DNA of 56,268 nt from Bacteroidales bacterium (GTDB lineage: Bacteria; Bacteroidota; Bacteroidia; Bacteroidales; Marinilabiliaceae), in contig JAFPZF010000037.1 in the NCBI GenBank assembly GCA_017417385.1, positions 1 through 56,268 of the forward strand. Reading direction: 5' to 3'. The position numbers and the translations under genes were made by a program. Positions 24,960 to 40,923 of the stretch are shown piece by piece; within the stretch, counting starts at the first letter, position 1, and each line of letters starts with the position of its first letter. The notes beneath the pieces were generated by a model. That model was not told where the DNA came from. It saw only the letters and a program-made list of their open reading frames with translations, and did not search any database.

Positions 24960-25793
24960 ATGAACGCAAATCTGAAAGGACTACCACTGATACAGCATAT
25001 CGACAGCGGAAACTTCTTTGTCATGGCAGGGCCATGTGTCATAGAGGGCGAGGAGATGGCGATGGAAATAGGCGAGCGACTCGCACGCATTTGTGACAAC
25101 CTAGAGTTGCCATTCATCTTCAAGGGGTCGTATCGGAAGGCGAACAGGAGCAGGATAGACTCGTTCTGTGGTATAGGCGACGAGAAAGCGCTCAAAATAC
25201 TGGAGAAGGTCCGCAGAGAGTTTGGGGTGCCAGTCATGACAGACTTCCACTCGGCGGCAGAGGCGGAGATGGCTGCGCAGTATGTCGACATACTACAGAT
25301 ACCGGCGTTTCTATGTCGTCAGACAGACCTGTTGACAGCGGGGGCGAGGACAGGCAAGGTGATCAACATCAAGAAGGGGCAGTTCATGTCGCCGGAGTCG
25401 ATGGAGTTTGCAGTCAAGAAAGTCGTCGATAGTGGGAACTCGAACGTACTCCTGACAGAGAGGGGCACGATGATGGGGTACAATGACCTTGTCGTTGACT
25501 TCAGGGGGATACCAGTGATGCAGAAGTTTGCGCCAGTCATACTAGACGTCACGCACTCGCTGCAGCAGCCGAACCAGGCGTCGGGCGTAACAGGCGGGAG
25601 GCCACAGCTGATAGAGACACTTGCGAGGGCAGGCGTAGCGGCAGGCGTCGATGGACTCTTCCTCGAGACGCATCCGGACCCACAGAATGCCAAGTCGGAC
25701 GGGGCGAACATGCTACAGATCGACCTATTCAGAGCGATGATGCAGAGACTCAAGGAAATACGCAAAGTAGTCAACGGCTTCGTAGAGGAATAG
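24960..25793 (+). CDS. kdsA: 3-deoxy-8-phosphooctulonate synthase
   Basis: 277 residues, normal length. Family blocks visible are FFVMAGPCVIEG, FKGSYRKANRSRIDSFCG, TDFHSAAEAE, NIKKGQFMSPE, LTERGTMMGYNDLVVDFR and GLFLETHPDPQNAKSDG. It condenses phosphoenolpyruvate with arabinose 5-phosphate to Kdo-8-phosphate for the inner core of LPS. A lipoprotein gene starts 4 bp after its stop. Confidence 0.96.
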   Translation: MNANLKGLPLIQHIDSGNFFVMAGPCVIEGEEMAMEIGERLARICDNLELPFIFKGSYRKANRSRIDSFCGIGDEKALKILEKVRREFGVPVMTDFHSAAEAEMAAQYVDILQIPAFLCRQTDLLTAGARTGKVINIKKGQFMSPESMEFAVKKVVDSGNSNVLLTERGTMMGYNDLVVDFRGIPVMQKFAPVILDVTHSLQQPNQASGVTGGRPQLIETLARAGVAAGVDGLFLETHPDPQNAKSDGANMLQIDLFRAMMQRLKEIRKVVNGFVEE

Positions 25794-25797
25794 ACTT

Positions 25798-26919
25798 ATG
25801 AAGAAACGGATAGGAGTGTGTCTGCTTGCAGCCACACTCTTTTTTCAATGTCAGAAGCCAAGCGATGAGGGCACGGACATCGTGAGAGTCAGTTTCGTCA
25901 TGCCAGAGGAGGAGGGCGAACAGGGAAGTACGACAATCAGAATCTTCGAATGCAACGAGAAGGCGTGGCGACAGGAGACAGACAGCGTCAGAGTCGAGAG
26001 AGGGAAGGAAAGCATCTGGGACAAAGAAATCGGGAAAGGGACAAACACGACATACATCGCGACGCTGGGCGGCGGGGCAGTCATCATCATTGGCGAGAAG
26101 GGGGAGATAGTCTGCGACTTCAACGAGGGGCGAGCAAGCGGGACGCCACTCAACGACGAGAAGAACGAATACAGACAAAGACTCTCTGAGCTGAGACGAG
26201 CGTCAGCCAACGCATACGACTCGCTCGCACGGATAGAATGGACGTCGGCGGACGACAGACAGGAGGCGCTCGAAAAAGTCGTCGGGAGGGCGAGAGAGGA
26301 GTCGCTAAACCTCAACAAGAGAATACTCAAGGAGCACCCAGGCGATGCACTCGCCGAATACATATTCTGGCAAGGAGTCATACCGGACGCGACCATCGAC
26401 GGCGACGCATTCAAGAAACTACTCGCAATGACAGACGAGAGAGTAGCGAAATTCCCAGTCGTCAAGGAGCACCTCAAGAAAGTCACCAATGCAGAAGAGA
26501 CACAAGTCGGGATGCAGTATAAAGACATCGAGGCGGAGACCGCAAATGGGGAGACAGAGGCGCTGTCACATCTCGTTGACAGCAAAGGGTATAGCATAGT
26601 ACACATCTTCGACCCGAGAGACAACAACACGCCAATAGACCTCGGGATACTCACGGAGCTCAGGAGTCAGCATAGCAAGGACATTTCGACAGTCGTCAGC
26701 TACTGCGAAGGCATAGACTCACGGGTGACTAGAAGGATAGCTGAGAAATTTCAGCTCGGGTGGCCCATATTCAACGACTATGAGCGGCGTGCGGAGAACA
26801 CATTTGGAGTCTTCAAGCTCCCGGCCGTCATCATAATCGACAAAGAGGGGAAGATAGCAGCGAGAGACATCGACGTCTCGGCGGCGCGCCACTGGATAGA
26901 AGTCGAGACAAAGAAGTGA
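25798..26919 (+). CDS. thioredoxin-fold lipoprotein lacking the CxxC pair
   Basis: 373 residues. The signal ends in a lipobox-like LFFQC. An N-terminal beta domain (about 30-115, DUF4369-like) and a helical middle (about 120-215) precede a thioredoxin-like domain (about 235-365) ending in the cis-Pro region FKLPAVIIIDKEGKI. Where a redox-active CxxC should follow the first strand, the sequence reads IVHIFDPRDNNTPIDLG, so disulfide chemistry is unlikely. Relatives with CxxC are periplasmic reductases of the TlpA/ResA type. It lies 4 bp after kdsA and ends at a strong terminator. Confidence 0.75.
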   Translation: MKKRIGVCLLAATLFFQCQKPSDEGTDIVRVSFVMPEEEGEQGSTTIRIFECNEKAWRQETDSVRVERGKESIWDKEIGKGTNTTYIATLGGGAVIIIGEKGEIVCDFNEGRASGTPLNDEKNEYRQRLSELRRASANAYDSLARIEWTSADDRQEALEKVVGRAREESLNLNKRILKEHPGDALAEYIFWQGVIPDATIDGDAFKKLLAMTDERVAKFPVVKEHLKKVTNAEETQVGMQYKDIEAETANGETEALSHLVDSKGYSIVHIFDPRDNNTPIDLGILTELRSQHSKDISTVVSYCEGIDSRVTRRIAEKFQLGWPIFNDYERRAENTFGVFKLPAVIIIDKEGKIAARDIDVSAARHWIEVETKK

Positions 26920-27000
26920 ATACAGACGTGAAGAGGTGACGACGGGGAAGGGAGAATAGAACACTAACCCAACGCCACGACATAGAGACAGAACAAGAGA

Positions 27001-27041
27001 AAGGGCAATGGCATTTCAGAGATAGAAACGCCATTGCCCTT
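27001..27041. terminator. strong bidirectional terminator
   Basis: AAGGGCAATGGC pairs perfectly with GCCATTGCCCTT, extended by TTTC/GAAA, around a short loop. It sits between the convergent lipoprotein gene (stop 26919) and the GH2 gene (stop 27065) and should end both transcripts. Confidence 0.85.
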
Positions 27042-27064
27042 GAATATTGTAGAGAGGGAGCGAG

Positions 27065-29671
27065 TTATTTCTGGACACCGAACTCCTTCTGTTGCTCCTC
27101 TACCTCGCGAAGAGTCCTGTTTCGATCCTCCTCGGAGGGGAGATTGGACGTCGAGGAGCCGGTATGACCGAGCCTGTGCGACGAGCCGACAGAGTGCTCT
27201 TCGAGCTGGCAGGAAGGCATATCGGGAGCTACGGAGGTGATGACGAGCGTGTCGGACGTCGGGACATAGACACCCTCGAAAGCAGCCTTAGCAATGACAG
27301 TTATCCTACCCGGCGTAGTCGTCGACCTGATGAGAGCAGGGGCACTACCCCACTCCACCTTGCGAGGGTTGCTCATAATACGCTCGTCGGAGATCAGTTC
27401 GCCATTGCCAAAGACCTCGAAGGAGACATCGTCGATAGCAAGGCGGCGGACATTACCATTGTCGTCAGTCACCTCGGCGACAACGACAATAAAGTCACTG
27501 CCATCCGCAACAAGATCACGCCCCATGAGGTCGGCTGAGAGCTTCAGTTTAGTAGATCTACGGGCAGGCATCTTCTTCTCGGAGCAGACCACCTTACCGT
27601 CCACAATACCCTCGGCGAGGAAGCTGACCTTCTGCCAATTACGCTGCTTGTAGCTATACTCTCGAGCCTTCCAGAAGTCCCAAGCGCCAGTGAACACAAC
27701 AGGCTCGGAAGGATTATCATCAGAAGAATGTGCGACAGCCTTAGTCACAACCATATCTCCCTCGAAGACAGTCAGGCGGACACTATCACAATTAGAGAAC
27801 ACGACGACGTCATTATCAGAGAACTGCGTCATCTCGCACGCAATCTTCACCATCGGCTCGGAGAGCGAGGTAGGCACCTGAGAGCGGAAAGCATAGAAAG
27901 CCGTCTTCTTCTGCCTAAAAGCATCGTAGATACCACCGAGGTAGCTATCAGGGTGGTAGCCGCGCTGGTGGTCGAAGGGGTGCCACTGACAGCCACCGAT
28001 AAACTGACGGCGGCCATGGAACATAGTGCCATAAGTATCAGACAGAGAGAGGGCGGCGACGAGCATCGGACGCTCGCCCCAGCTTCTCGCGGCCCTATTA
28101 AGACAGTTGTGAGCATACCAGTCGTCGACCATCTCACCAAATTCGCGGGTGAAGATACACTTGTCAGTCGGGATGTCAGCCTTGCCGATGTTCTCGGGCC
28201 AGTCGTAGAGGACATCATAGTTCTCCTTGACGCCAGCGGAATTGAGGTCGGCAGCAGCGACGGGTCTACCATTGAAAGGGAACTCCTCTCGGGTAATCTT
28301 CAGAGCCTCGATGGCGAAGTCGAGAGGGTAGCGAGTCTCGTTGAGGATAGGCTCCCACATCAGGACAGAAGTATGATTGCGGTCGCGACGGATAATCTGA
28401 CGCGTATTCTCGTGGACCTTCTTAGCGAACTCCGGGTCCTTGTTCCAATACTGCCAGCCGGGAGTCGGGACGATGACAAAGAGCCCCAATTCGTCGCAGG
28501 CATCCATGAAGGCGGGGTCCTGAGGATAGTGAGCGGCGCGGATAATGTTCATGCCGGCCTCCTTGAGGCGAAGAGCGTCCCTCCACTGCTGAGAGTTTGG
28601 CATAGCATTGCCGACATAGGCGAAGTCCTGGTGCCTGTTACCGCCGACAAGCTGACGGTAAGGCTTGCCGTTGAGCCAAAAGCCATCCTGCCCCTTGAAC
28701 TCAGCACGGCGGATGCCGGCGCGGACAACACCACCATCGACCACCTTGCCACCGACAGAGACCTCGATAGCAACATCGTAGAGCGTCGGGTCGTCGGGAG
28801 ACCAGAGGTGAGGATTCTTGACAGTAGATTTCAGGGAGACAGACTGTGAGACAGAGGGGGCAACCTTCAGAGACCTCTTGGAGCGAGCGACAACCTTTCC
28901 GGAGCGGTCAGATATGACGACACACACCTGAGCGGAAGCCGGCTTAGGGCCGACATTAGCAAGGTCCACCTCCGTCAGAACATCAGCCTGCCTATCAGAG
29001 ATATTGTCATAATGGACGAAGACGCCACCGCCTGCGACCTTGCCAGCCACGTTAGGGTCCGTGATATAAACGGAGTTGAGACCGAGGAGGTAGACATCGC
29101 GATAGATACCGCCGTGATAGGCAAAGTCGAGCGCCATCTGCCTCTTGCCTGGGGGATAGGTCTTATCGTCGGAGTTGTCCGTCATGACAGCTATGACAGC
29201 CGTCTCGCCTGGCTTGACGCCAGCGGCAGAGAGGTCGACAGAGACAGGTAGGTAGCCACCCTCGTGGGAAAGGACCTTACGGCCATTGACATAGATCTCC
29301 TGACGGCCCATGATAGCCTCGAAGTAAACCACAGCCTTGCGGTCCTTCATCTCGGAGGGGAGAGTGAAGTGCTTGCGATACCAAGCTACGCCCTGATAGT
29401 TCTTACAGCCACTGGCGTTGGAAGGTTCGAGGCGGAGACCGTGAGGCAGGTTGACGACCTTCCAGGAGGCGTCATCAAAATCCAGACCGGCAGCGCCCGG
29501 AGCGTCGCCGAGACAGAAACGCCAACCGAGATTGAAATTCAGCACCACTCGACCATAATCAGCGGAAGAATAGAGGCCTGCGACAGACCAACGGGATCGA
29601 TTGGCATACGAGGTGGCGCAGGTGAACGAGAGAATCAGCGCCAAAACGCATGCGAAAGAAAGACGTATCAT
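27065..29671 (-). CDS. secreted glycoside hydrolase family 2 (beta-galactosidase-like)
   Basis: 868 residues with a signal peptide (about 1-23). An N-terminal sugar-binding jelly roll is followed by an immunoglobulin-like GH2 domain and a TIM barrel. Family strings include NRHQDFAYVGNAMP, IIRAAHYPQDPAFMDACDELG, the acid/base block LMWEPILNETRYP and the likely nucleophile block FTREFGEMVDDW. C-terminal beta domains of the DUF4982/GH2 type follow, then a charged, Ser-rich tail. It should remove beta-linked galactose or a related sugar from glycans outside the inner membrane; exact specificity cannot be read. No SusCD pair is nearby. Its pyrimidine-ending codons reflect the strand it occupies. 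Confidence 0.9.
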   Translation of the reverse strand: MIRLSFACVLALILSFTCATSYANRSRWSVAGLYSSADYGRVVLNFNLGWRFCLGDAPGAAGLDFDDASWKVVNLPHGLRLEPSNASGCKNYQGVAWYRKHFTLPSEMKDRKAVVYFEAIMGRQEIYVNGRKVLSHEGGYLPVSVDLSAAGVKPGETAVIAVMTDNSDDKTYPPGKRQMALDFAYHGGIYRDVYLLGLNSVYITDPNVAGKVAGGGVFVHYDNISDRQADVLTEVDLANVGPKPASAQVCVVISDRSGKVVARSKRSLKVAPSVSQSVSLKSTVKNPHLWSPDDPTLYDVAIEVSVGGKVVDGGVVRAGIRRAEFKGQDGFWLNGKPYRQLVGGNRHQDFAYVGNAMPNSQQWRDALRLKEAGMNIIRAAHYPQDPAFMDACDELGLFVIVPTPGWQYWNKDPEFAKKVHENTRQIIRRDRNHTSVLMWEPILNETRYPLDFAIEALKITREEFPFNGRPVAAADLNSAGVKENYDVLYDWPENIGKADIPTDKCIFTREFGEMVDDWYAHNCLNRAARSWGERPMLVAALSLSDTYGTMFHGRRQFIGGCQWHPFDHQRGYHPDSYLGGIYDAFRQKKTAFYAFRSQVPTSLSEPMVKIACEMTQFSDNDVVVFSNCDSVRLTVFEGDMVVTKAVAHSSDDNPSEPVVFTGAWDFWKAREYSYKQRNWQKVSFLAEGIVDGKVVCSEKKMPARRSTKLKLSADLMGRDLVADGSDFIVVVAEVTDDNGNVRRLAIDDVSFEVFGNGELISDERIMSNPRKVEWGSAPALIRSTTTPGRITVIAKAAFEGVYVPTSDTLVITSVAPDMPSCQLEEHSVGSSHRLGHTGSSTSNLPSEEDRNRTLREVEEQQKEFGVQK

Positions 29672-29778
29672 AATAAATGTTTGTCGTTATCAGCCATAAA
29701 GTTACAACAACGTCGTGGAATGACAGCAATCGGAGGAAGACAAAATGCCAAAAACAGCCGAGGGAGGACGGGTAATGA

Positions 29779-29838
29779 GGAATGAGGGGCGGAGAAAAGA
29801 GGGGAAGAAGAGGGGAAGAAGGAGGGGAAAATCGTCCA
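29779..29838 (+). repeat. polypurine island at a divergent gap
   Basis: A/G-only on the + strand, with GAGGGGCGGAGAAAAGAGGGG and GAAGAAGAGGGGAAGAAGGAGG words. It lies between the minus-strand GH2 start and the + strand small ORF. This is the rightmost island seen with + polarity. Confidence 0.65.
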
Positions 29839-29927
29839 CAGAGAAAAAAAACGCAAAAAAAATGCAAATGGAATACGTGTTTTACCGCTGAGGATTGTCT
29901 AGAGAGTAAACCAAAGAAGCAAGGCTT

Positions 29928-30104
29928 ATGGAATTCATATTTGAACTCTTTGCACAGTTGTTGCATCAGGATAATACAGACAAGGCAGAGGACAATGCGG
30001 CCATGGAGCTCAACAAGGCCGAGGCGACCGAATCGGAGAGTGAGGAGGTAACGCTAGCGGAGTCCAAGCCGGTCAACATCTTTAGTGTAGTCAACTTCCA
30101 CTAG
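29928..30104 (+). CDS. 58-residue acidic peptide preceding fecR
   Basis: ATG at 29928, TAG at 30102-30104, with GCAAGG just upstream as a weak ribosome site. The peptide begins with an amphipathic stretch MEFIFELFAQLLHQ and continues as a very acidic Glu/Ala/Ser-rich segment ending NIFSVVNFH. It has no signal peptide or membrane helix. Codon use fits the neighbouring genes. It lies 32 bp before fecR, in the place where a FecI-type sigma gene would normally be. I do not recognise it; it could be a small regulatory partner of FecR or a translated leader. Confidence 0.6.
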   Translation: MEFIFELFAQLLHQDNTDKAEDNAAMELNKAEATESESEEVTLAESKPVNIFSVVNFH

Positions 30105-30136
30105 ACAGAGCAGACAACATTCACTAACCACGAAAA

Positions 30137-30994
30137 ATGAGCAACCTAATATCACATATCCTCAGTGGCGATGCAGACAAGAGACAGCTAGAAGCCGTCA
30201 GGTATGCACTCGATGCAGAAGGCAGGAAAGCCGACGCATGGGGGAGCGTATTGAAGAGCATCGAGGTCCCGCAGAGGAGAAGTAGGAAAACGTTCCTACG
30301 AGTGGCAGCAGTACTTCTCCCGCTAGCGATATCGATGCTGATGATCGTCTTCTTCAGACCGCCATCGCCGCAGTCGACATACGCCACGGCGGCGACAGTT
30401 GACACCGTCCGATTGCCAGACGGGTCGATAGCGCTGCTGGCAGACGGGTCGTCGCTCACATACGCTGAGAACTGGCGTGGGAGATTTGCGACGCTCACGG
30501 GCACGGCAGTGTTCAAGGTCCAGAAAGACCCGAAGCATCCGTTCAGGGTAAAGGCGAAGGATGTCGAGGTCCGCGTGCTGGGCACCACATTTAGAGTCGA
30601 GAACCGCCCGAACCAGAACTTCATACGCACAGTCGTCGAGGAAGGGCGTGTCAAGATGTCGGCGAAGAGGAGCGACGTCATCCTGACGGCGGGCGAGGAG
30701 GCGACGTGGCAAGACGGGAAGCTCGTCAGCAGCTTGACGGCGCATCAGCATAACCTCTTTGAGAATCCGATCAGGAGAAGGTATGAGGGGGCGTCGTTGC
30801 ACCACATAGCCGAGGACGTAGCGATGACGTTCCACACTCAGATAACGTCGATAGACTGTGACGAGACGGCGGACAGCATATTGCTGACGACGACGTTTGA
30901 GACAGAGACGCTAGACGAGATAGTCAACGAGCTAGCACTGCTTAGCGGTAAAAAAATAGCGATAGTAAATGGCTGTCTGACGATTACTGACTAA
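30137..30994 (+). CDS. FecR-family anti-sigma factor
   Basis: 285 residues. A short cytoplasmic part (about 1-50) precedes one membrane helix (about 55-73, VAAVLLPLAISMLMIVF) and a periplasmic FecR domain with DTVRLPDGSIALLADGSSLT, TGTAVFKVQKDPKHPFRVKA and VRVLGTTFRVEN. The DUF4974-like C-terminal part ends IAIVNGCLTITD. It should relay the state of the downstream STN-type receptor to a sigma factor. No sigma gene adjoins it. Its stop codon abuts the hairpin at 30995-31044. Confidence 0.9.
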   Translation: MSNLISHILSGDADKRQLEAVRYALDAEGRKADAWGSVLKSIEVPQRRSRKTFLRVAAVLLPLAISMLMIVFFRPPSPQSTYATAATVDTVRLPDGSIALLADGSSLTYAENWRGRFATLTGTAVFKVQKDPKHPFRVKAKDVEVRVLGTTFRVENRPNQNFIRTVVEEGRVKMSAKRSDVILTAGEEATWQDGKLVSSLTAHQHNLFENPIRRRYEGASLHHIAEDVAMTFHTQITSIDCDETADSILLTTTFETETLDEIVNELALLSGKKIAIVNGCLTITD

Positions 30995-31044
30995 CTTTGT
31001 CGACGTGCGGGTATAGAATAGTTACCTGCGTTGTGTCGACAAAG
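30995..31044 (+). promoter_or_regulatory. long hairpin sequestering the receptor ribosome site
   Basis: CTTTGTCGAC (30995-31004) pairs perfectly with GTCGACAAAG (31035-31044), and inside it GCGGGTA (31007-31013) pairs with TACCTGC (31023-31029) with one G-U pair. The hairpin begins at the base after the fecR stop. Its 3' arm takes up AAAG of the receptor's AAAGGAG ribosome site. A ribosome ending fecR translation would open it, so translational coupling is likely. A second small hairpin, ACTTAAA with TTTAAGT, lies at 31064-31082. Confidence 0.7.
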
Positions 31045-31058
31045 GAGCAAAAAGACTG

Positions 31059-33668
31059 ATGGGACTTAAACAAGTTTTAAGTGTTGATTTGTTTCCGAGA
31101 CACCTTTCGAGGTGTCTTTTTTTGTTGTGCTGGTGTCTGTCATTATTGACTTGTATAGTCGTAGGCACGACGTCCGCCAGCGCACAGGACCTCAGTCTGC
31201 TCACGAAGCCAGTCCCATCGGCAGCGCGATACACAGGCAGCACAGACTCACTGCTACATCTCGTCGAGAGAGAGACAGGAGTAAGTATATCATTCTCCAA
31301 CCAGACCTTTCTCAGGCGGCAGACGGCAGTCAAGTCGAGCAGTCCGACACTGCAGGAGTGCCTTGATGCCATCTTTCTACGCTTTGCGCCGCGATATATA
31401 CCGGCGCAGAACAACAAGATACTCGTCCTCACGCCCATCTCAAAGCTCGTGACCGTCAGTGGATATTGCAGAGATGCGCAGAACGGGGAGGCGCTCATAG
31501 GGACGAATGTCGTCGACACCTTCCTCCGGAGGGGTAACAGCACCAATGCCGACGGATATTACTGCCTACACCTGCCGCCGGGCAATGCCGTACTACGCTT
31601 CTCGTTCGTCGGCTACAGTCCGAGAGTCCTGACGATACCGCTGACAGCGGACACAATAGTCACAGTAGAGATGAGCGACCAGACGCAGCTGCTCGACATC
31701 GACGTCGATGCGCACAACCAGTTCATCTCCGACGACGAGCGGGAGGGGACCACCACCCTCCCCCCCGACCTTGTCAGAGCCATGCCGACCCTGCTGGGAG
31801 AGAGCGACGCCATCAGCACACTCCGGCAGACGCCAGGCACGCAGAGCGGCAGTGAAGGATTCGGCGGGATGAGCGTCAGAGGAGGAGGGATAGATCAGAA
31901 CATGATCTTCATCGACGATGCGCCGCTCTACAGTCCCAACCACCTACTCGGTATCTTCTCGGCCTTCAACACAGACATAATCAACAAAGTGTCGCTCATC
32001 AAGAGCGGCTTCCCGTCGCGATATGGCGGGCGGCTTTCGTCAGTCCTCGACATCAGGATGCGCGATGGCGACCTCAAGCACTATGGGGCGAGTGCGAACA
32101 TCGGGCTACTCGCCTCGACGCTGACAGCAGACGGACCAATCGTCAAAGACAAAGTATCCTTCGTCGTCTCGGCTAGGCGGTCTTACTTCGACTTCGTCCC
32201 ACGCCTTCTCAACAAAGGGGCGGAGACACAGTACTCATACTATTTCTATGATGCAGCGGCGAAAGTCAACTGGCGCATCAACAGCAACAACACGTTATCT
32301 GCGACCGTCTTCAACGGAGGCGACAAGCTAAGGCAAGACTTCAACATCGACAAGAGCCAGAGCAACTACATACGATGGGGCAACACACTTGCGTCGACAC
32401 GGTGGAGCCATGTCTTTGCGCCGCCCATCACGCTGAACATCATCGGGTGGCTCAGCCGGTACAGATTCAGGAACTACAAGGGGGAGAGCGACTATCAGAT
32501 CAGCAACGAGTATCGGAACGAGATACACGACTACGGGCTGCGAGCGGACCTAGCGTTCTATCCCTCGATAATCCCGTGCATCATCAGAGTCGGCTCGTGG
32601 CAGTCCGTCAAGAACTACAGGCCACTCTTTGCCGTCAACACGCGGCAGGTCGTCGATACAGTATATAACAATCGGAGGTTACGGGAGACAGACATGCTAC
32701 GCTCGGAGTCTCACGCATACGCCGAGATGGAGTTTCGGCATGCAGGACTCTACACGTCGATGGGGCTACACCTCTCGTCGATGCCGAGGGAAGAGCAGAG
32801 CACATATCGAGTCTGGGAGCCGAGACTATTGGCGGGGTATAAGTTCTCTCCGTATCTGACAGTCAGGGCCGGGTATTCACTGACGTCGCAGTTTGCGTAT
32901 CTCTTCCGCCTGCTCTCCGTCTCACTCCCGAGCGACATCTGGCTACCGATTCCGGCGCACACACGGCCGCAACGAGCACGGCAGTTCTCAGTCTCGTTAC
33001 ACTCGCGACTCCCATTTGACCTATCGCTCTCAGTCGAAGCGTATCACAAGAAGTACATCAACATCCTCACACAGATCTCAATGTCGCCATACGAGATCAT
33101 ATCGCGCAACCGGTGGAGCGAGACGTGCACGGAGGGCGTAGGTGACGCAAACGGCATCGAGATCATGCTACGGAGGAACCGAGGGAACGTCCGAGGGTGG
33201 GTCGGGTACACATTGAGCCGCAGCCGGAACAAATATGAGCTTATCAACGACGGCGAATATTTCCCGCAAGACAACGACAGGCGACATGCCCTGTCAGTCT
33301 TCGCGACGTACAGCATAACCGAGCGGACGACCGTATCAGCGTCTTGGAACTATGCGACAGGTGCGCCATTCACGCTACACTCGCAGAGATATTCCGTCGT
33401 CGGGTATGATGCGACGTTCAGCGTCCCCGAGCAACGAAACTTCCTCAGGATGCCGTCTCAGCACTCACTAAACATCGGAGTCGATATACGTTTCCCCGAC
33501 TCGCGATTCTCCAAGACCCTCAGTCTCGGAGTCTATAACACGTATGCGCACGCCAACCCGATGTTCATCTACTGGCGGCCGACGAACGACGGGAAGACAT
33601 ACTCTCTCAAGCAGTTCAGCCTTGTCGGCATACCGCTACCATATTTCAAGTACTCAATCCATTTCTGA
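31059..33668 (+). CDS. STN-domain TonB-dependent receptor (FecA-like)
   Basis: 869 residues, ATG at 31059 after AAAGGAG at 31041-31047. A signal peptide with a hydrophobic Cys/Leu core ends near TTSASAQD (about 42). An STN domain at about 60-125 (SLLHLVERETGVSISFSNQ) fits contact with FecR. A carboxypeptidase-regulatory-like domain (about 130-205, GTNVVDTFLRRGNSTNADG) and a plug (about 220-340, GGMSVRGGGIDQNMIFIDDA) precede the barrel, which ends in a Phe. The ligand is unknown; metal chelates are typical for this architecture. An intrinsic terminator lies inside codons 14-22. The first 13 codons are A/T-rich, unlike the rest. Confidence 0.92.
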   Translation: MGLKQVLSVDLFPRHLSRCLFLLCWCLSLLTCIVVGTTSASAQDLSLLTKPVPSAARYTGSTDSLLHLVERETGVSISFSNQTFLRRQTAVKSSSPTLQECLDAIFLRFAPRYIPAQNNKILVLTPISKLVTVSGYCRDAQNGEALIGTNVVDTFLRRGNSTNADGYYCLHLPPGNAVLRFSFVGYSPRVLTIPLTADTIVTVEMSDQTQLLDIDVDAHNQFISDDEREGTTTLPPDLVRAMPTLLGESDAISTLRQTPGTQSGSEGFGGMSVRGGGIDQNMIFIDDAPLYSPNHLLGIFSAFNTDIINKVSLIKSGFPSRYGGRLSSVLDIRMRDGDLKHYGASANIGLLASTLTADGPIVKDKVSFVVSARRSYFDFVPRLLNKGAETQYSYYFYDAAAKVNWRINSNNTLSATVFNGGDKLRQDFNIDKSQSNYIRWGNTLASTRWSHVFAPPITLNIIGWLSRYRFRNYKGESDYQISNEYRNEIHDYGLRADLAFYPSIIPCIIRVGSWQSVKNYRPLFAVNTRQVVDTVYNNRRLRETDMLRSESHAYAEMEFRHAGLYTSMGLHLSSMPREEQSTYRVWEPRLLAGYKFSPYLTVRAGYSLTSQFAYLFRLLSVSLPSDIWLPIPAHTRPQRARQFSVSLHSRLPFDLSLSVEAYHKKYINILTQISMSPYEIISRNRWSETCTEGVGDANGIEIMLRRNRGNVRGWVGYTLSRSRNKYELINDGEYFPQDNDRRHALSVFATYSITERTTVSASWNYATGAPFTLHSQRYSVVGYDATFSVPEQRNFLRMPSQHSLNIGVDIRFPDSRFSKTLSLGVYNTYAHANPMFIYWRPTNDGKTYSLKQFSLVGIPLPYFKYSIHF
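31098..31123 (+). terminator. intrinsic terminator within the receptor signal-peptide codons
   Basis: AGACACCT (31098-31105) and AGGTGTCT (31110-31117) form an 8-bp perfect stem around a TTCG tetraloop, followed by seven T (31117-31123). This is the full signature of a rho-independent terminator, on the + strand, 40 bp inside the receptor frame. It would act on transcripts coming from fecR unless a ribosome is translating the signal peptide. Confidence 0.7.
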
Positions 33669-33673
33669 CGTCG

Positions 33674-34573
33674 ATGGCAAAATACCGCAACATAGCAACA
33701 GTCCTGCTGACGAGCCTCGTGGCGATGGTCGTGTCGTGCGAGACAGACCCGACGGGCATCGTCATGCCCGACAGGCAGACCGAAGGCATCATGACGGCGA
33801 TATGCAAGAACGGCCAGCCGCTCGTCGTCAACGTATATGGGAGCGTCCCCTACAATGACACAGTCAGAACCAAGAACATCGGCGAGGGATACGTCACCGC
33901 AGTCAAAACGGACGGAGCAAGACAGAGACTTTACCTTGCCGGTGGCACGACATCATTGACATTCGACGAAATCATTTGCCTACCAGACGACAAGCTATAT
34001 CTGAATGCGACAGTCGGGAACTTCATCCTCGACGGGAGACTCACGATGCCGTCGCTCATAGATATCGAGTCGGTCGACACGCTATCCATCGACAACAAGA
34101 TGCACATAGCCGTCACCATCACAGACTCCAAGGAGAGCTACGACTACTATCAGCTCCAAGTGTACCTACGCAAATATGCAGGGGGCGTCATAGAGAGCGA
34201 GGAGCGTCTCGAGTGCCAGTACACACATTCAGCGTTCTCCATAGCGACGCCACTACTCGAGACGAACACGAACCTCGTCGGCCTCTTCACAGACGAGAGC
34301 CGCAATGGGCGCAAGATGCAGCTAACGCTCGACGCAAAGATAGACGACATCAATGCTGCCGCCGACGCCGACAGTACGGCAATAGTCGTCAGGCTGCACC
34401 ATCATTCGCCTGAGTACTACTACTTCCTACTCTCGAGTGCCTTTGCAGAGGACTACCTCCTCATCCCGGCGCTCGGGCTACAGACAGCATACTCCAACGT
34501 CGAAGGAGGGTATGGAATCATAGCAGGCACGACACTCAGCGTGAGCGTCATCACATTAAGGCAGACAAAATGA
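33674..34573 (+). CDS. DUF4249-type lipoprotein
   Basis: 299 residues. The signal ends in a lipobox-like VAMVVSC. The beta-rich body has the family-like start TDPTGIVMPD, SVPYNDTV and a C-terminal YSNVEGGYGIIAGTT, which matches the DUF4249 pattern (YSNI.GG.GIF). Members are found next to STN-type TonB receptors in Bacteroidota and are presumed surface or periplasmic accessories; the molecular role is unknown. It starts 5 bp after the receptor stop and overlaps the next gene by 4 bp. Confidence 0.82.
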   Translation: MAKYRNIATVLLTSLVAMVVSCETDPTGIVMPDRQTEGIMTAICKNGQPLVVNVYGSVPYNDTVRTKNIGEGYVTAVKTDGARQRLYLAGGTTSLTFDEIICLPDDKLYLNATVGNFILDGRLTMPSLIDIESVDTLSIDNKMHIAVTITDSKESYDYYQLQVYLRKYAGGVIESEERLECQYTHSAFSIATPLLETNTNLVGLFTDESRNGRKMQLTLDAKIDDINAAADADSTAIVVRLHHHSPEYYYFLLSSAFAEDYLLIPALGLQTAYSNVEGGYGIIAGTTLSVSVITLRQTK

Positions 34574-35295
34574 ACGATCTACTCTCGCTATTCCTACTGT
34601 GCATCGGAGCCTCGTTCATCCAAAGGACGACAGGCTTCGGATTCGGCATCTTCATCATGACACTCTTGCCGAGCATCATCGGCTCGTATGGAGAGGCGAC
34701 AGCCCTCTCGGGCATACTGGCGCTAACCACCTCGGCCATCATAGCGTGGAGGATGCGGAAGCTCATCGTATGGAAGAAGCTCATCCCGATCCTCGTGACG
34801 TTCATCGTCGTCTCGACGGCTGCGATATTCATCCTAACACGAATAGAGGGGCAGCTACTGAACAGAATACTGGGAGCCGTTCTCATCCTGATAAGCATCT
34901 ATTTCTGCCTTTTCAGTCAGCGGATAAAACTACGACCGACCAAGCGTGTCATGTTCTCGACGGGCACGCTGAGCGGAGTCATGGGAGGACTTTTTGGCAT
35001 GCAGGGACCACCGGCAGTCCTCTACTTCATCACAGTCGAGGACGACAAAGACAAGTATATGGCGACAGTCCAGGCGTTCTTCCTCCTCGGCAACCTGACG
35101 ATGACGCTTGTCAGGGCGTTCAACGGGTTCGTGACGCTGTCAGTCAGCATCGGGTACCTCATAGGCCTAGGGGGAGTCTTCATAGGGTCGTCGATAGGAG
35201 GGTACGTCTTCAGCAGGATCCCGAAGCACATATTCCGGTACGTCGTCTATGCGTATATCGGCATCAGTGGGCTCATCATCATCATCAACGCGTGA
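34570..35295 (+). CDS. TauE/SafE family membrane permease
   Basis: 241 residues with about eight membrane helices. Family features are FIQRTTGFGFGIF near the N-terminus and the repeat GTLSGVMGGLFGMQGPPAVLY in the middle. Known members export or import sulfur-containing organic anions or act as permeases of unknown substrate. The 4-bp ATGA overlap with the DUF4249 gene puts it in the receptor operon, which suggests it works on the same ligand or its product. Confidence 0.88.
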   Translation: MNDLLSLFLLCIGASFIQRTTGFGFGIFIMTLLPSIIGSYGEATALSGILALTTSAIIAWRMRKLIVWKKLIPILVTFIVVSTAAIFILTRIEGQLLNRILGAVLILISIYFCLFSQRIKLRPTKRVMFSTGTLSGVMGGLFGMQGPPAVLYFITVEDDKDKYMATVQAFFLLGNLTMTLVRAFNGFVTLSVSIGYLIGLGGVFIGSSIGGYVFSRIPKHIFRYVVYAYIGISGLIIIINA

Positions 35296-35469
35296 ATAGT
35301 CGATCAGCGTAACCATCGGAGGCGGATGTGCGTACAAAAAAGAGACAGAAAGCAGAATACAGATACATAGGACAAAAGAGAAACAAGAAAGAAGCAATCA
35401 TTTTTTTCACAAAAAGCGTCGAAGAATTATAAGTTCATGCTTTTTTAGTTATTTTTGCGAGAGAAAGAA

Positions 35470-35477
35470 TAAATTTG
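35470..35477 (+). promoter_or_regulatory. possible -7 box of the yggS-like gene
   Basis: TAAATTTG lies 27 bp before the ATG at 35504. The preceding 40 bp are T-rich but lack a TTG at the ideal spacing. Confidence 0.4.
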
Positions 35478-35503
35478 TAGGTAGGAGCAACTGAATATTG
35501 AAG

Positions 35504-36190
35504 ATGTCTGACATTGCCAAAGCGATAGAAGAGATAAGGGCAGAGTTGCCACAGGGTGTCACGCTGATAGCGGTATCGAAAACACATTCCGCCGACTGCG
35601 TGAGGGAGGCATACGACATAGGCGTACGTGACTTCGGTGAGAACAAAGTGCAGGAGATGGTCCAGAAGGCGGCTGAGCTACCGACGGACATACGGTGGCA
35701 CCTCATCGGACATCTACAGACGAACAAAGTCAAGTACATAGCGCCGTTCGTCTATGCCATACATTCTGTAGACAGTCAGAAACTGGCAGCAGTCATCAAC
35801 AAGGAGGCGCTGAAGGCGCAGCGTAGGATACGCTGCCTACTCCAGGTCCACGTCGCACAGGAGGAGACGAAGACAGGATTCACGCCGGAGGAGCTACTCG
35901 CCTACCTAGAAAGCGGAGAATGGAAGACACTCGCTGGGGTCGAGATAGTCGGCATAATGGCCATGGCGACCAACACCGACGACGAGGCTCAGGTGCTGAA
36001 AGAATTTCAATCCGTCCGCTCGCTTTTCGACGATGTCAAGTTGCGCTACTTCCCGACGGAAGACAGTTTTCGGGAAGTCTGCATGGGCATGTCGGGCGAC
36101 TACAAAATTGCAGTTCAAGCCGGAGCGACCGAGGTGCGCATAGGCACTAAGATCTTCGGAATGAGATATTACCCTCAAAAGGAACAATGA
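35504..36190 (+). CDS. YggS/PLPBP-family pyridoxal-phosphate protein
   Basis: 228 residues from ATG 35504 (a TTG two codons earlier is in frame but less likely). The cofactor lysine is in the string LIAVSKTHSAD; DFGENKVQE, WHLIGHLQTNK and the C-terminal CMGMSGDYKIAV and GATEVRIGTKIFG are family hallmarks. It is a cytoplasmic single-domain PLP carrier that keeps vitamin B6 and amino-acid pools balanced; no catalytic activity is known. It stands alone after the permease operon. Confidence 0.94.
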   Translation: MSDIAKAIEEIRAELPQGVTLIAVSKTHSADCVREAYDIGVRDFGENKVQEMVQKAAELPTDIRWHLIGHLQTNKVKYIAPFVYAIHSVDSQKLAAVINKEALKAQRRIRCLLQVHVAQEETKTGFTPEELLAYLESGEWKTLAGVEIVGIMAMATNTDDEAQVLKEFQSVRSLFDDVKLRYFPTEDSFREVCMGMSGDYKIAVQAGATEVRIGTKIFGMRYYPQKEQ

Positions 36191-36216
36191 ACTCTAAAAC
36201 AAGAAATTAATTAGCT

Positions 36217-37143
36217 ATGAAAATATCAAGGATAGCGTTTGGCACGGCCGTAATGGCACTAATGGCAACTGCCTGCACACGCACACAGCCGACAACGAAC
36301 AGTATCGATGAAGCAATCGGCGAGACGACGACAACGACCGGTCAAGGCGACTCGTCAGAGGAGGACCTCAACAAGTCAAAGACAATTCTCTACACGATGC
36401 CTGCCCCAATAGAGATGGCATCGCTCATCAAGGAGACGGGCGTCAGATTCGACGACCAGCTACTCCACGACCTATCGGCGGCGAACAAGTACAACACGAA
36501 CCTCAAGATGGCGCTGAGCCTCGGGGCGTATGCGACGGACATGAGCGTCAGCGGGATGTTTAGCCAGTCGCAGAAGATGGTCGATTACCTCAAGACGCTG
36601 AAGGACATCACGAGGCGACTCGGCATAGTCCAGATCATGGACGAGAACGCCATCAGGAAGCTCGAGGGCACGAACGTCTCGAAGGACGAGATGCTGAACG
36701 TCATCAGCGAGGTGTATATGAACACCAACCAGTACTTGACAGAGAACAACCGTCGTAACGTCGCGACCATGGTCATGGCTGGCGGCTGGGTCGAGGGTCT
36801 GTACCTAGCGCTCAACCTCATCGACACCAACCATCTGAACAAAGACATCGTCGAGCGCATCATAGCTCAGAAGCTCGCACTCGCTACGATGCAGAACATC
36901 GTCGACAGTGAGAACTCAAAGGGAGAGGACGCCGACCTCACCTACATCTCGGAGAAGATGCAGGAGATCAAAGCCATCTTCGACTACGTCGAGATAGCCA
37001 AAGTCGGGCGAGTATCAGCACTGACGGACCCGGAGACGAAGACGACAGCCATCAAGGCCAACACGTCTGGCGAGCTCAACACAGAGATAGTCAACGCACT
37101 CAAGCAGACCGTCACCAACATCCGCAACGAGTTCGTTAAATAG
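36217..37143 (+). CDS. conserved lipoprotein of unknown function
   Basis: 308 residues. The signal ends in the lipobox-like ALMATAC, followed by a Thr/Ser/Glu-rich linker to about residue 50. The rest is all-helical (for example YTMPAPIEMASLIKETGVRF and MALSLGAYATDMSVSGMF). The opening PAPIEMASLIK resembles a conserved helical lipoprotein I have seen in Bacteroidota, without a known function. It ends at a very strong terminator. Confidence 0.8.
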   Translation: MKISRIAFGTAVMALMATACTRTQPTTNSIDEAIGETTTTTGQGDSSEEDLNKSKTILYTMPAPIEMASLIKETGVRFDDQLLHDLSAANKYNTNLKMALSLGAYATDMSVSGMFSQSQKMVDYLKTLKDITRRLGIVQIMDENAIRKLEGTNVSKDEMLNVISEVYMNTNQYLTENNRRNVATMVMAGGWVEGLYLALNLIDTNHLNKDIVERIIAQKLALATMQNIVDSENSKGEDADLTYISEKMQEIKAIFDYVEIAKVGRVSALTDPETKTTAIKANTSGELNTEIVNALKQTVTNIRNEFVK

Positions 37144-37165
37144 CATTATTCCCCCACCCTATACA

Positions 37166-37205
37166 CAAAACCCTATCCGATAATAACAATTCGGATAGGG
37201 TTTTG
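37166..37205 (+). terminator. strong terminator after the helical lipoprotein
   Basis: CAAAACCCTATCCGA pairs perfectly with TCGGATAGGGTTTTG, fifteen base pairs with a 10-nt loop. The A-run and T-run arms make it likely to work in both directions, though the next gene is co-directional. Confidence 0.85.
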
Positions 37206-37276
37206 TAAATTAAGACAAGATACATAGAAAACGGGCATCAGCCCATCCATAGGCGAAACGGAAAACACTTATCAGA

Positions 37277-39079
37277 ATGGCACAGAAAACCAGGACAGAG
37301 ATAGAAGACACGTACAAGTGGGACCTGACCCCCATCTACCCATCAGTTGAGGAATGGCGTAAGGAGAAAGTAGAGATCTTCAAGAAAATCGACACAGTCC
37401 AGACCTATCAGGGCAGACTCGGGCGCTCGGCAGCCACACTACTCGAGTTTCTCGAATTCGACAGTGAGCTCAACAAGACGTTGACAAAGCTCAGTTGCTA
37501 TGCGTCGCTACTCTCGGACGAGGACGTCAACAACGCCGAGAACATAGCATTGACAAAGGAGATAGAGCAGGTCACCATAGACTTTGCCCAGAAAGCAGCC
37601 TTTGTCAGGCCGGAGCTTGCGTCCATACCGGCAGCGACCTACGCCGCGTTCATGAAAGAGCAGCCGGGACTATCGCAATACAGCATGCTGATCGACAGGA
37701 TACTCAGAATGAGGGCTCACACACTCTCGGACGTCGAGGAGGCGCTGCTTGCGAAGATGAGCATCATGGGAGACACGCCGGGAGACACATTCAACATATT
37801 CTCGGATGCAGAGATGCCGTTCCCGACCATCAAGCTCCAGAGCGGCGAGGAAGTCCTTCTCGACCACTCAGCCTACTCGAAGGTCAGGGCGTCCTCGGTC
37901 AGGGCCGACAGAGAGACAGCGTTCAAGGCGTTCTGGGAGAACTATCGCAAGTTCGAGGGCACCTTTGGTGAGCTGATGAACGGAAACCTGAAACGGGCAG
38001 TCTTCGGCATCAGTGCGAGGAAGTATGACAGCTGTCTTGCGGCGGCGCTCCACTACAATGACATACCAGTGGCAGTATATAAGTCGCTGATTGACAACGT
38101 GCATGCAGCACTGCCGACCTTCCACAGATACCTACGGCTCAAGCAGAGGCTACTAGGAGTCGATCAGCTAAAGTATTCAGACATCTATGCGCCGGCGGTA
38201 GCGACGTCGAACCTCCACTTCACCTACGAAGAGGCCAAGGACCTCGTCCTCGAGGCGCTCAAGCCACTTGGCGAGGACTACGTATCGGTAGTCAGGCGAG
38301 CATTCGCGGAGCGATGGATAGACGCCATGCCGAGCAAGGGCAAAGCGACGGGGGCGTATTCAAACGGCGCAATATATGACGTCCACCCGTACATCCTCAT
38401 GAACTTCAACGAGCTGTATGACGACCTCGGGACCCTCATCCACGAGCTCGGGCACACGATGCACAGCTACCTCTCCAACAAGAATCAGCCGTATGCGACG
38501 TGCGACTACTCCATATTCGTCGCCGAAGTGGCGTCGACATTCAACGAGGCGCTGCTCGACCACCTGATGCTCCAGAAGTTGACAGACAGGGACGAGCGCA
38601 TCACGCTGCTCATGAACATGCTGGACGGCTTCAAGGGGACACTCTTCAGGCAGACACAGTTTGCAGAGTTCCAGCTCCTCATGAGCGAGATGGCAGAGAA
38701 GGGAGAGCCAATCACCGGTCAGAGACTGACAGAGCTGTACGGCTCGATACTCAGGAAGTACTATGGGCACGACGAGGGCGTATGCCACATAGACGGAGTC
38801 GAGAACATCGAGTGGGCCTTCATCCCGCACTTCTACATGGGATTCTACGTCTATCAGTACAGTACGTCCTTCGTAGCATCGCAAGCCCTCTCGGAGATAG
38901 TCCTCAAGGGCGGGAGCGAAGAGCTCAAGCGCTACATCAACTTCCTCTCGGCAGGAGACTCCAAGTATCCTATTACCGAGCTGAAAGAAGCCGGGGTCGA
39001 CATGACGACAAGCGAGCCATTCGAGCAAGCCATGAACAAGATGAACCAGCTCATGGACGAGATCGAAAAGCTAGTCTGA
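37277..39079 (+). CDS. pepF: M3-family oligoendopeptidase F
   Basis: 600 residues, usual length. The zinc motif HELGH is at about 389-393 (in IHELGHTMHSYLS), with the third ligand region VAEVASTFNEALL. It cleaves short peptides in the cytoplasm. Codons are C-ending (ATC, CTC), opposite to + strand genes left of 27 kb. The ABC transporter starts 38 bp after its stop. Confidence 0.96.
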   Translation: MAQKTRTEIEDTYKWDLTPIYPSVEEWRKEKVEIFKKIDTVQTYQGRLGRSAATLLEFLEFDSELNKTLTKLSCYASLLSDEDVNNAENIALTKEIEQVTIDFAQKAAFVRPELASIPAATYAAFMKEQPGLSQYSMLIDRILRMRAHTLSDVEEALLAKMSIMGDTPGDTFNIFSDAEMPFPTIKLQSGEEVLLDHSAYSKVRASSVRADRETAFKAFWENYRKFEGTFGELMNGNLKRAVFGISARKYDSCLAAALHYNDIPVAVYKSLIDNVHAALPTFHRYLRLKQRLLGVDQLKYSDIYAPAVATSNLHFTYEEAKDLVLEALKPLGEDYVSVVRRAFAERWIDAMPSKGKATGAYSNGAIYDVHPYILMNFNELYDDLGTLIHELGHTMHSYLSNKNQPYATCDYSIFVAEVASTFNEALLDHLMLQKLTDRDERITLLMNMLDGFKGTLFRQTQFAEFQLLMSEMAEKGEPITGQRLTELYGSILRKYYGHDEGVCHIDGVENIEWAFIPHFYMGFYVYQYSTSFVASQALSEIVLKGGSEELKRYINFLSAGDSKYPITELKEAGVDMTTSEPFEQAMNKMNQLMDEIEKLV

Positions 39080-39117
39080 CAGAGACAAAACGTAGACAAC
39101 AACAACACAATAAACCT

Positions 39118-40923
39118 ATGGCATTCGTTGGTCGAGGTCAGTTCCTGACCGAGGAAGAGGAACAGAACAAGCCGGTGGTGACGCTCGCTCTCATCAAGAG
39201 AGTGATGAGTTACCTCCGGCCATACTGGAAGCAGATGACACTTGTCCTGCTCGCCATCTCACTCTCGTCCGTCCTCGGGATAGCGCCGTCAGTGCTGACC
39301 GGACGGATAATCGACGAAGGCCTGATAGGGAAGGACTGGTATCTCCTGATAGAGCTAGTGCTGCTGTCGCTCGGCGTCACACTCGGAGCCAACCTCATCG
39401 GGGTACTGGAGAGCTATCTCAACACGTGGATTGCACAGCACATCACGTACGACATGAGGTGCATGATGTACAGGACACTCCAGAGACAGAGCCAGAAGTT
39501 CTTCACCAACAACAATCAGGGTGACATCATCACGCGAATGACGAGCGACATACAGGGCGTCCAGAGGATCATCACAGACACATTCTCGAGCATTCTGTCC
39601 AACACCATCACGCTCATCGTCGCCCTAATCGCCATGTTCCAGATGGACTGGCGTCTTGCGATAGTCGGCATACTTGTCGTCCCGCTGTTCATCATCCCGA
39701 CACGACGGGCGGGCAAGACACGATGGACACTCACACGCGAGGCGCAAGCGGCGTCGGACGAAATCAATGGCATCCTCAACGAGACGCTATCAGTCAGCGG
39801 ACAGCTCCTCGTCAAGCTATTCGGACGTGAGGAGTACGAGTATGAGCGGTATGAGAAAGTCAACAAGAGACAGGTACGGCTGAACATCAAGGAGAACATG
39901 GCGGGACGGTGGTTCAGAGTGTTCCTCTCGACAACGACAAGCGTCGGTCCAATGCTGCTGTATCTCGTCGGTGGATATCTGATCATATTCCGAGCGGAAG
40001 GGCTGTCCGTCGGTGACATCACAGTCTTCGTCGCGCTCCTCTCCAGGATGTACGGGCCAGTCAATCGGCTGCTCAACATACATGTCGACTGGGTGCGCTC
40101 GATGGCAATGTTCACCCGAATCTTCGAGTACTTCGACATGCCATGCGAGATAACCTCGTCGGAGAATCCCGTCGCCATCAGCAAGCCGACTGGCAACGTC
40201 AGATTCGAAAACGTCTCATTCTCGTATGACGAGGAGCGACAGATACTCCACAACATCAGCTTCGACGTGGCAAAGGGCAAGAGCATAGCCATCGTCGGAC
40301 CGTCGGGCTCGGGCAAGAGCACCATCGTCAACCTCATACCACGTCTCTACGACGTAAAGAGTGGCAGAGTCCTAGTCGACAACGTCGACGTGAGAGACAT
40401 AGACCTCCAGCAACTAAGGAGCCTCGTCGGAATCGTCAGCCAAGAGACATATCTCTTCAACGGGACAATCCGCGAGAACCTCCTCTACGCCAATCCCGAG
40501 GCGACTGAGGCCGAGCTCATAGAAGCCTGCAAACGCGCCAACATCTATGACTTCGTCAGCAGCCAGGAGAAAGGACTCGACACGCTCGTCGGCAACAGAG
40601 GGCTGAAGTTGTCAGGCGGCGAGAAACAGCGAATCTCGATAGCACGCGTCATCCTGAAGCGGCCATCAATCCTCATCTTCGACGAGGCGACATCGGCTCT
40701 CGACTCGATATCCGAGAAGAAAATACAGGAGGCGACGGAGCCACTCATCAAGAGCCATACCAGCATACTGATAGCACACCGCCTATCGACAATACTCGCA
40801 GCCGACGAGATACTCGTCGTCAAAGATGGCAGAATAGTCGAGCGTGGCACCCATAAAGAGCTCGTCGGTGCTGGCGGGGTGTACTCGCTACTATACGAGA
40901 CACAGTTCAAAATCGAGAGGTAG
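39118..40923 (+). CDS. ABC exporter, fused membrane and ATPase domains (MsbA-like)
   Basis: 601 residues from ATG 39118. Six membrane helices span about 25-320. The ATPase domain has Walker A GPSGSGKS near 395, signature LSGGEKQR near 498, Walker [10 protein letters not shown] near 518 and the switch His in AHRLS near 554. It should work as a homodimeric half-transporter exporting a lipid, drug or peptide; MsbA-type lipid A export is one option but cannot be decided from sequence. The frame is open far upstream over pepF, but that part is not coding. Confidence 0.93.

Follow-up and report, generated by a model that had tools for sequence, protein, structure and literature searches.

At the junction between a fecR gene and the TonB-dependent receptor gene that follows it, in a 56,268-nucleotide (nt) stretch of a Bacteroidales bacterium of the Marinilabiliaceae (GenBank assembly GCA_017417385.1, contig JAFPZF010000037.1, forward strand; "the window" below), the first codons of the receptor carry an RNA hairpin that, across orthologous loci, is kept beyond what the encoded protein requires, as for a selected cis-regulatory RNA. 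This conclusion stands on synonymous recoding tests and on covariation. Computation further reveals a second structure over the start of the receptor gene, recurrence of both structures in relatives, a conserved promoter-like box at the fecR stop codon, and a difference in the accessibility of the receptor start between RNAs of different origin. We tentatively model the junction as a two-part RNA gate that senses where a transcript began, a reading to which we give slightly less than an even chance; promoter activity, a start site, termination and antitermination by ribosomes at the junction are what we infer. The strong evidence for the element is comparative rather than drawn from the statistics of the window, which belongs to one assembly (labelled G000) of the genus labelled g1.

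The hairpin within the receptor codons

To compare the locus with its relatives, a FecR profile made from 29 proteins was searched in 71 genomes of the bacterial family, 64 of which hold exactly one match at E ≤1.4e-78, paralogs beginning at 1.4e-67. Junctions were compared between these 64 orthologs and 40 paralogs, and tests of the open reading frame (ORF) after fecR were made on 63 orthologs (a genome of the window's genus, G007, has no receptor frame after fecR) and on 36 paralogs (4 of the 40 have no usable ORF). In the recoding test the amino acids were fixed, synonymous codons were drawn from the same locus (fecR and receptor), and the best hairpin in approximately the first 42 codons was taken. 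By folding energy, the orthologs reach a mean z of −2.78, with 26 of 63 beating all 60 recodings, versus −0.54 and 4 of 36 for the ORFs after paralogous fecR genes. When the hairpin is scored together with its U run, no more than two of 200 recodings match the native sequence at 32 of the 63 ortholog loci and at none of the 36 paralog loci. One or both tests are passed at 45 ortholog loci from 14 of 19 genera and at four paralog loci, and a scored terminator is present in 36 of the 63 orthologs versus 0 of 36 paralogs, beginning 52 to 102 nt past the fecR stop (102 in the window). An earlier reading of the window from its sequence only had named, as one outcome that would refute it, homologues in which the protein persists and both stems are gone. 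Most genera show no such loss; neither test is passed at 18 of 63 loci (8/9 in g3, 3/3 in g10, the single loci of g2, g16, g18 and g4, and one each in g11, g13 and g19), and g10, although it fails both, retains a long hairpin over the start region.

Covariation of the stems in related genomes, which the same reading had put forward as a check, was indeed found for the in-ORF stems in two groups. In g12, whose hairpin has 12 + 5 bp, 98.8% of outer-stem cells are paired and pairs changed on both sides (double changes) number 4 of 12 in the outer and 2 of 5 in the inner stem; the whole three-helix structure scores 0.178 against a shuffled mean of 0.128 (reached by 0 of 500 shuffles) and against 0.029 to 0.088 when slid along the alignment. 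The terminator stem shared by g21, g8, g6, g7 and g19 has double changes in 5 of 12 pairs and scores 0.267 against 0.177 (again 0 of 500), these controls not fully removing shared ancestry. The codons and amino acids at the hairpin differ between the genus groups. At two pairs of the stem the window has A-U where its relatives in the genus have G-C (AGG[CT]GC in the relatives, AGACAC in the window, letters read by eye); here MAFFT had placed the window out of register, and a hand register was used, leaving aside G007 and G012.

In the window itself, the hairpin is the one that had been described from the sequence, an 8-bp stem with a TTCG loop and seven T in receptor codons 14 to 22 (Table 1): positions 31098–31105 pair perfectly with 31110–31117 around the loop at 31106–31109, the T run occupies 31117–31123, and codon 14 begins with 31098. 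Its sequence has two hallmarks of an intrinsic (Rho-independent) terminator, a GC-rich hairpin with a short loop and an adjoining U run. With the amino acids kept, 1 of 200 synonymous recodings scores as well as a terminator; by folding energy alone it does not stand out (z +1.31), 55 of its 60 recodings being as stable, which weighs against it. A loose consensus scan of positions 25000 to 40000 returned 16 terminator-like sites versus 11.5 expected (standard deviation 3.5), no clear excess, and the site at the receptor start has the densest T run among the 16. Terminator-like hairpins are present in all 10 other loci of the genus, and the alignment places GATTTGTT ahead of the hairpin in 11 of 11. 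By eye, the hairpin arms in this genus encode the positively charged n-region of the signal peptide, whose hydrophobic core begins in the U run.

Table 1. Positions of the features at and around the fecR–receptor junction
Feature	Position in window	Strand	Description
Small ORF	29928..30104	+	58 amino acids (MEFIFELFAQ...NIFSVVNFH), upstream of fecR
fecR	30137..30994	+	Anti-sigma regulator, 285 amino acids; Pfam FecR E 8.9e-14
TAACTTTG	30992..30999	+	fecR stop fused to putative sigma-ABfr-type −7 box (TAnnTTTG), exact match
Hairpin 1	30995..31044	+	Outer stem 30995–31004 with 31035–31044 (10 bp)
AAAGGAG	31041..31047	+	Shine-Dalgarno-like site of receptor; first four letters (AAAG) within hairpin 1 stem
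TonB-dependent receptor	31059..33668	+	869 amino acids; Pfam CarbopepD_reg_2 and Plug
Middle hairpin	31064..31082	+	7 bp just after ATG, 31064–31070 with 31076–31082
GATTTGTTT	31086..31094	+	Motif directly before terminator; codons Asp-Leu-Phe
Intrinsic-terminator hairpin and T7	31098..31123	+	Receptor codons 14–22
DUF4249 protein	33674..34573	+	299 amino acids, next gene after receptor; Pfam DUF4249 E 6e-14

Similar sites were seen elsewhere in this genome. At 25813–25840 of the window, codons 6 to 15 of an ORF (25798–26919) hold a further terminator-like hairpin followed by a T run; they fall within the lipoprotein-like signal peptide of this ORF, which starts 5 nt past the end of the preceding one. 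On another contig (C77, locus L158, 6082–6104), an in-ORF terminator occupies codons 11 to 18 of a frame with a hydrophobic N-terminus, which starts 3 nt past the end of the previous ORF.

The fecR stop codon and the receptor start region

The first of the two structures begins directly after the fecR stop. As the sequence-only reading had it, hairpin 1 half hides the AAAGGAG site of the receptor: inside the outer stem lies an inner stem of 7 bp (31007–31013 with 31023–31029, one G-U pair). The fold of positions 30980–31140 has a z of −3.9, none of 200 dinucleotide shuffles being equally stable. The predicted probability that the Shine-Dalgarno (SD)-like site is unpaired is 0.19 in an RNA that reads through from 30930 versus 0.71 in RNAs starting at 31003–31006; permuting the 10-base arm raises the mean to 0.60, with 9 of 300 permutations as closed as the native arm. 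The 7-bp hairpin that had been placed just after the ATG is present in the window, but no counterpart of it was seen in the alignment of the genus (by eye, without a statistic). A possible antiterminator pairing, of the 3′ arm of hairpin 1 with the 5′ arm of the terminator, is visible by eye in a few loci.

Across the orthologs we computed the accessibility of the start region, defined as the 16 nt before the start codon up to the end of that codon, in a read-through RNA that includes the end of fecR and in an RNA starting at a putative promoter of the receptor. The unpaired fraction (n = 63) is 0.38 in read-through RNA, 0.66 in own-promoter RNA starting at +10 and 0.48 in read-through RNA with its upstream part shuffled (Wilcoxon p 9e-6). 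Moving the assumed start between +4 and +12 gives own-promoter means of 0.58 to 0.69, versus 0.39 for read-through, and with a threshold of 0.05 the own-promoter RNA is more open at 50 of 63 loci and less open at 2 (start +10), or at 47 and 3 (start +8). In g12 a stem of at least 11 pairs is predicted across the fecR stop in 14 of 14 loci, and start-region hairpins of differing sequence recur, unevenly, in other genera. The fecR end pairs with the leader at a mean of 23.5 in the window's genus, versus 10.4 for mismatched partners, and this pairing ranks in the top 5% at 16 of 64 loci only.

The fecR stop codon (30992–30994 in the window) is TAA in 64 of 64 orthologs, and positions +4 and +5 behind it are T in at least 90% of them. 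The resulting box resembles TAnnTTTG, which the available part of one study gives as the sigma-ABfr −7 consensus (PMC7366714). The pattern TAnnTT[TCA]G lies at the fecR stop in 48 of 64 orthologs versus 2 of 40 paralogs, and in a six-frame sample of the window genome 10 of the 767 frames that stay open for 200 codons or more have it. The exact consensus is present in 11 of the 64 orthologs. Five of the nine g3 loci have a similar box (TACTTTTG or near) displaced downstream by about 10 nt, and in G007, where another ORF replaces the receptor after fecR, the box is lost (TAAAACGC). A leucine codon of the form W-T-T-R stands about 12 nt upstream of the box in the logo. By its position, the box fits a promoter within or after the 5′ arm of hairpin 1, and its sequence suggests that it may act as one.

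Two of the last codons of fecR vary little: in ATCTCTGAY before TAA, the TCT for serine and the ATC for isoleucine are nearly fixed as nucleotides in orthologs and not in paralogs, partly because of pairing with the receptor start region in g12 and g10.

A proposed gate on transcript origin and its alternatives

In the gate that we propose, the fecR stop codon would double as part of the receptor promoter, with TAACTTTG as its −7 box and a start near 31004. RNA that reads through from fecR would fold its 5′ arm over the ribosome site of the receptor; with ribosome loading thus impaired, the terminator within the signal-peptide codons would form and stop transcription at about 31123. RNA from the receptor's own promoter would lack the outer 5′ arm of hairpin 1, so ribosomes could load, and their transit through the first 20 or so codons would keep the terminator open; translation of FecR would therefore not be needed. 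A terminator placed in signal-peptide codons is most obviously overcome by ribosomes translating those codons. The effect would be to insulate the receptor from read-through of the fecR operon and to keep only transcripts that are under translation. Extended to the whole family, the same gate would consist of an overlap of fecR stop, receptor promoter and start-hiding arm, followed some 50 to 100 nt on by a terminator within the codons of the signal peptide, and full-length messenger RNA (mRNA) would come only from RNAs that start at the receptor promoter and are promptly translated; this extension is possible, but we hold it with more doubt than confidence. The recurrence of differing letters in a similar shape suggests a built-in RNA gate on the amount of receptor.

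Several observations weigh against the gate. The first concern the in-ORF hairpin: 27 of 63 orthologs have no scored terminator, the U run being weak or missing by score, and these include 10 of the 14 loci of g12. There the in-ORF hairpin is strongly kept yet 4 of 14 loci score as terminators, and for this reason it may have a use other than termination. The paralog control is imperfect, since its frames often start late, leaving fewer codons to test, and its ORFs were not verified as receptors; nor are loci of one genus independent of each other. The second concern the hiding of the start. Read-through RNA leaves the window's ATG exposed (unpaired 0.88 from 30930 and 0.70 from 30960), own-promoter RNA if anything exposes it less (0.63), and the window's start region as a whole differs little, reaching 0.61 in read-through, 0.70 in own-promoter and 0.62 in shuffled RNA, 21 of 60 shuffles being as closed. 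No more than 2 of 10 loci of the window's genus stand out in start-region hiding; the gain in accessibility is small or nil in g3, g19, g9 and g4 and depends on the assumed start in g21, g8 and g6, and shorter RNAs generally fold less. The start-hiding stem of g12, with 90.8% of its cells paired, shows zero double changes, and that of g5, g13 and g18 (the alignment of hairpin 1) is well paired and covaries weakly (17 of 500 shuffles). The third concern the box, which has one mismatch to TAnnTTTG in 37 of its 48 occurrences. Sigma-ABfr promoters usually have about 19 to 21 nt between their −33 and −7 boxes, and no conserved −33 TTTG box is seen at that spacing in the ortholog logo; because none is evident, a promoter of the extracytoplasmic function (ECF) type is also possible.

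The sequence-only reading had proposed that a ribosome finishing fecR opens hairpin 1 and that translation of the signal peptide then prevents termination. Its idea of a terminator under translational control agrees with an in-ORF hairpin kept as RNA and with recurring start-region hairpins; the ribosome finishing fecR as the opener is not established, given the box at the stop. Taken as a full alternative, such translational coupling, built from the same elements as the gate, would have one mRNA over fecR and the receptor, whose output would follow FecR translation. The final fecR codons of g12 and g10 contain the 5′ arm, which a terminating ribosome would open, and 14 to 65 nt separate the fecR stop from the receptor start (picked by script), but coupling leaves unexplained both the conserved box at the stop and the loss of that box in G007, and the terminator begins 52 to 102 nt past the fecR stop, beyond the stretch that a ribosome at that stop covers. 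We regard it as a serious rival, if a rather unlikely one.

G007 also bears on a simpler view, that of a plain terminator at the end of the fecR operon, which would overlap the receptor start through tight packing and be made harmless by receptor translation, with no regulation involved. In this draft genome another ORF, choloylglycine-hydrolase-like by eye, follows fecR, and a 16-bp terminator is nevertheless kept. The 789 kb of the window genome likewise contain 8 sense in-ORF terminators beside 59 intergenic ones, and 7 of the 8 lie within 120 nt of an ORF start, although some of these ORFs are possibly spurious or have wrong starts. Such a terminator would account for neither the start-region hairpins nor the box, and we consider it unlikely. 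Finally, a trans-acting factor, such as an RNA-binding protein, a NusG-like antiterminator or a small RNA, might tip the receptor's own transcript towards either termination or read-through. With a putative start near +10 followed by the terminator, a short leader RNA, perhaps itself a small RNA, would indeed result, and GATTTGTT stands ahead of the hairpin in all loci of the window's genus. That motif, however, lies in codons, no binding site shared between genera was noticed and the window has no gathering-level Rfam match, which makes regulated attenuation of this kind improbable.

Neighboring genes and known systems

The window encodes a FecR-domain anti-sigma protein (by Pfam), as FecIR-type surface signaling requires, and its gene is the sole PF04773 match in the whole genome. 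An ECF sigma gene lies upstream at 24 of 64 ortholog loci by a strict motif, and at more in a wider listing of the loci; in G004, of the window's genus, it is about 400 nt from fecR. In the window no ECF sigma gene adjoins fecR, and the best likely relative of the locus's sigma in this genome (44% identity) is found at C25:6924-7451, unlinked from fecR. A small ORF related to the one upstream of fecR in the window occurs in 63 of 64 ortholog loci (recounted by eye). Its MEF... protein has about 45 to 75 amino acids, an acidic middle and, in most loci, an FH or FR end, and is placed after the ECF sigma gene where one is present; the window copy has no Pfam or NCBIfam match. The conserved small protein is possibly a third partner of the sigma/FecR system.

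The receptor's signal peptide, judged by eye, spans roughly codons 1 to 43. A search for an STN domain gave no hit at E 0.01, though by eye residues 45 to 125 resemble one. A TTG at 31089 was set aside as an alternative start: an in-frame ATG or GTG lies 21 to 36 nt upstream of it in the 11 loci of the genus, and the upstream start, the ATG at 31059, was kept for that reason.

Beyond the family, 247 genomes drawn across the order yielded four family members and one weak hit passing E 1e-72, with at most nine candidates scored per genome and relatives in fecR-rich genomes possibly missed; the weak match (G136, E 2.4e-74) was left out of the orthologs. Also rejected was a distant receptor (26%) in a Draconibacterium metagenome-assembled genome (L154), where the fecR-end motif occurs once only, downstream of the receptor, and which has no BLASTN match to the ortholog loci. 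A plasmid search gave 67 records, every one below 60% identity.

No description of this junction layout was found in the open-access literature searched. In translational coupling by hairpins, a hairpin covers the downstream start region near the upstream stop codon; the present junction differs from it by a promoter-like box at the stop and a terminator in the downstream codons. Hiding of a ribosome site by a hairpin of the longer RNA, together with translation of an RNA that starts at a nearer promoter and lacks one arm, is how genes of the phage T4 gene e type are controlled, whereas here the arrangement would belong to a chromosomal TonB receptor locus and be combined with a terminator. 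ORF-internal 3′ ends have been described in Escherichia coli, and, as far as the available part of that work goes, premature termination there is alike in having early stop signals in or near gene starts, some of them stem-loops with a U run (PMC7815308). Here, by comparison, the terminator stands in the signal-peptide codons of a FecR-linked receptor in many genera and is accompanied by a start-region hairpin and a promoter-like box. FecI-FecR-FecA signaling, as presented in a recent review (PMC9249621), shares with the locus a FecR beside a TonB-dependent receptor and, at many orthologous loci, an ECF sigma gene, but differs in that the best relative of the sigma gene is on another contig in the window genome. 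None of the terms "terminator," "attenuat," "read-through," "translational coupling" or "stem-loop" occurs in the text of the review, and the gate, if true, would add to FecR/TonB-receptor control an RNA layer that goes unmentioned there under these terms. It would also show that signal-peptide codons can double as a structured RNA element whose shape is kept while its letters change across genera, and would offer a well-defined system in which to gauge the tightness of transcription-translation coupling in these bacteria. Terminators in early codons and hairpins over ribosome sites are already known; what is new here is the fusion of the fecR stop with a promoter-like box.

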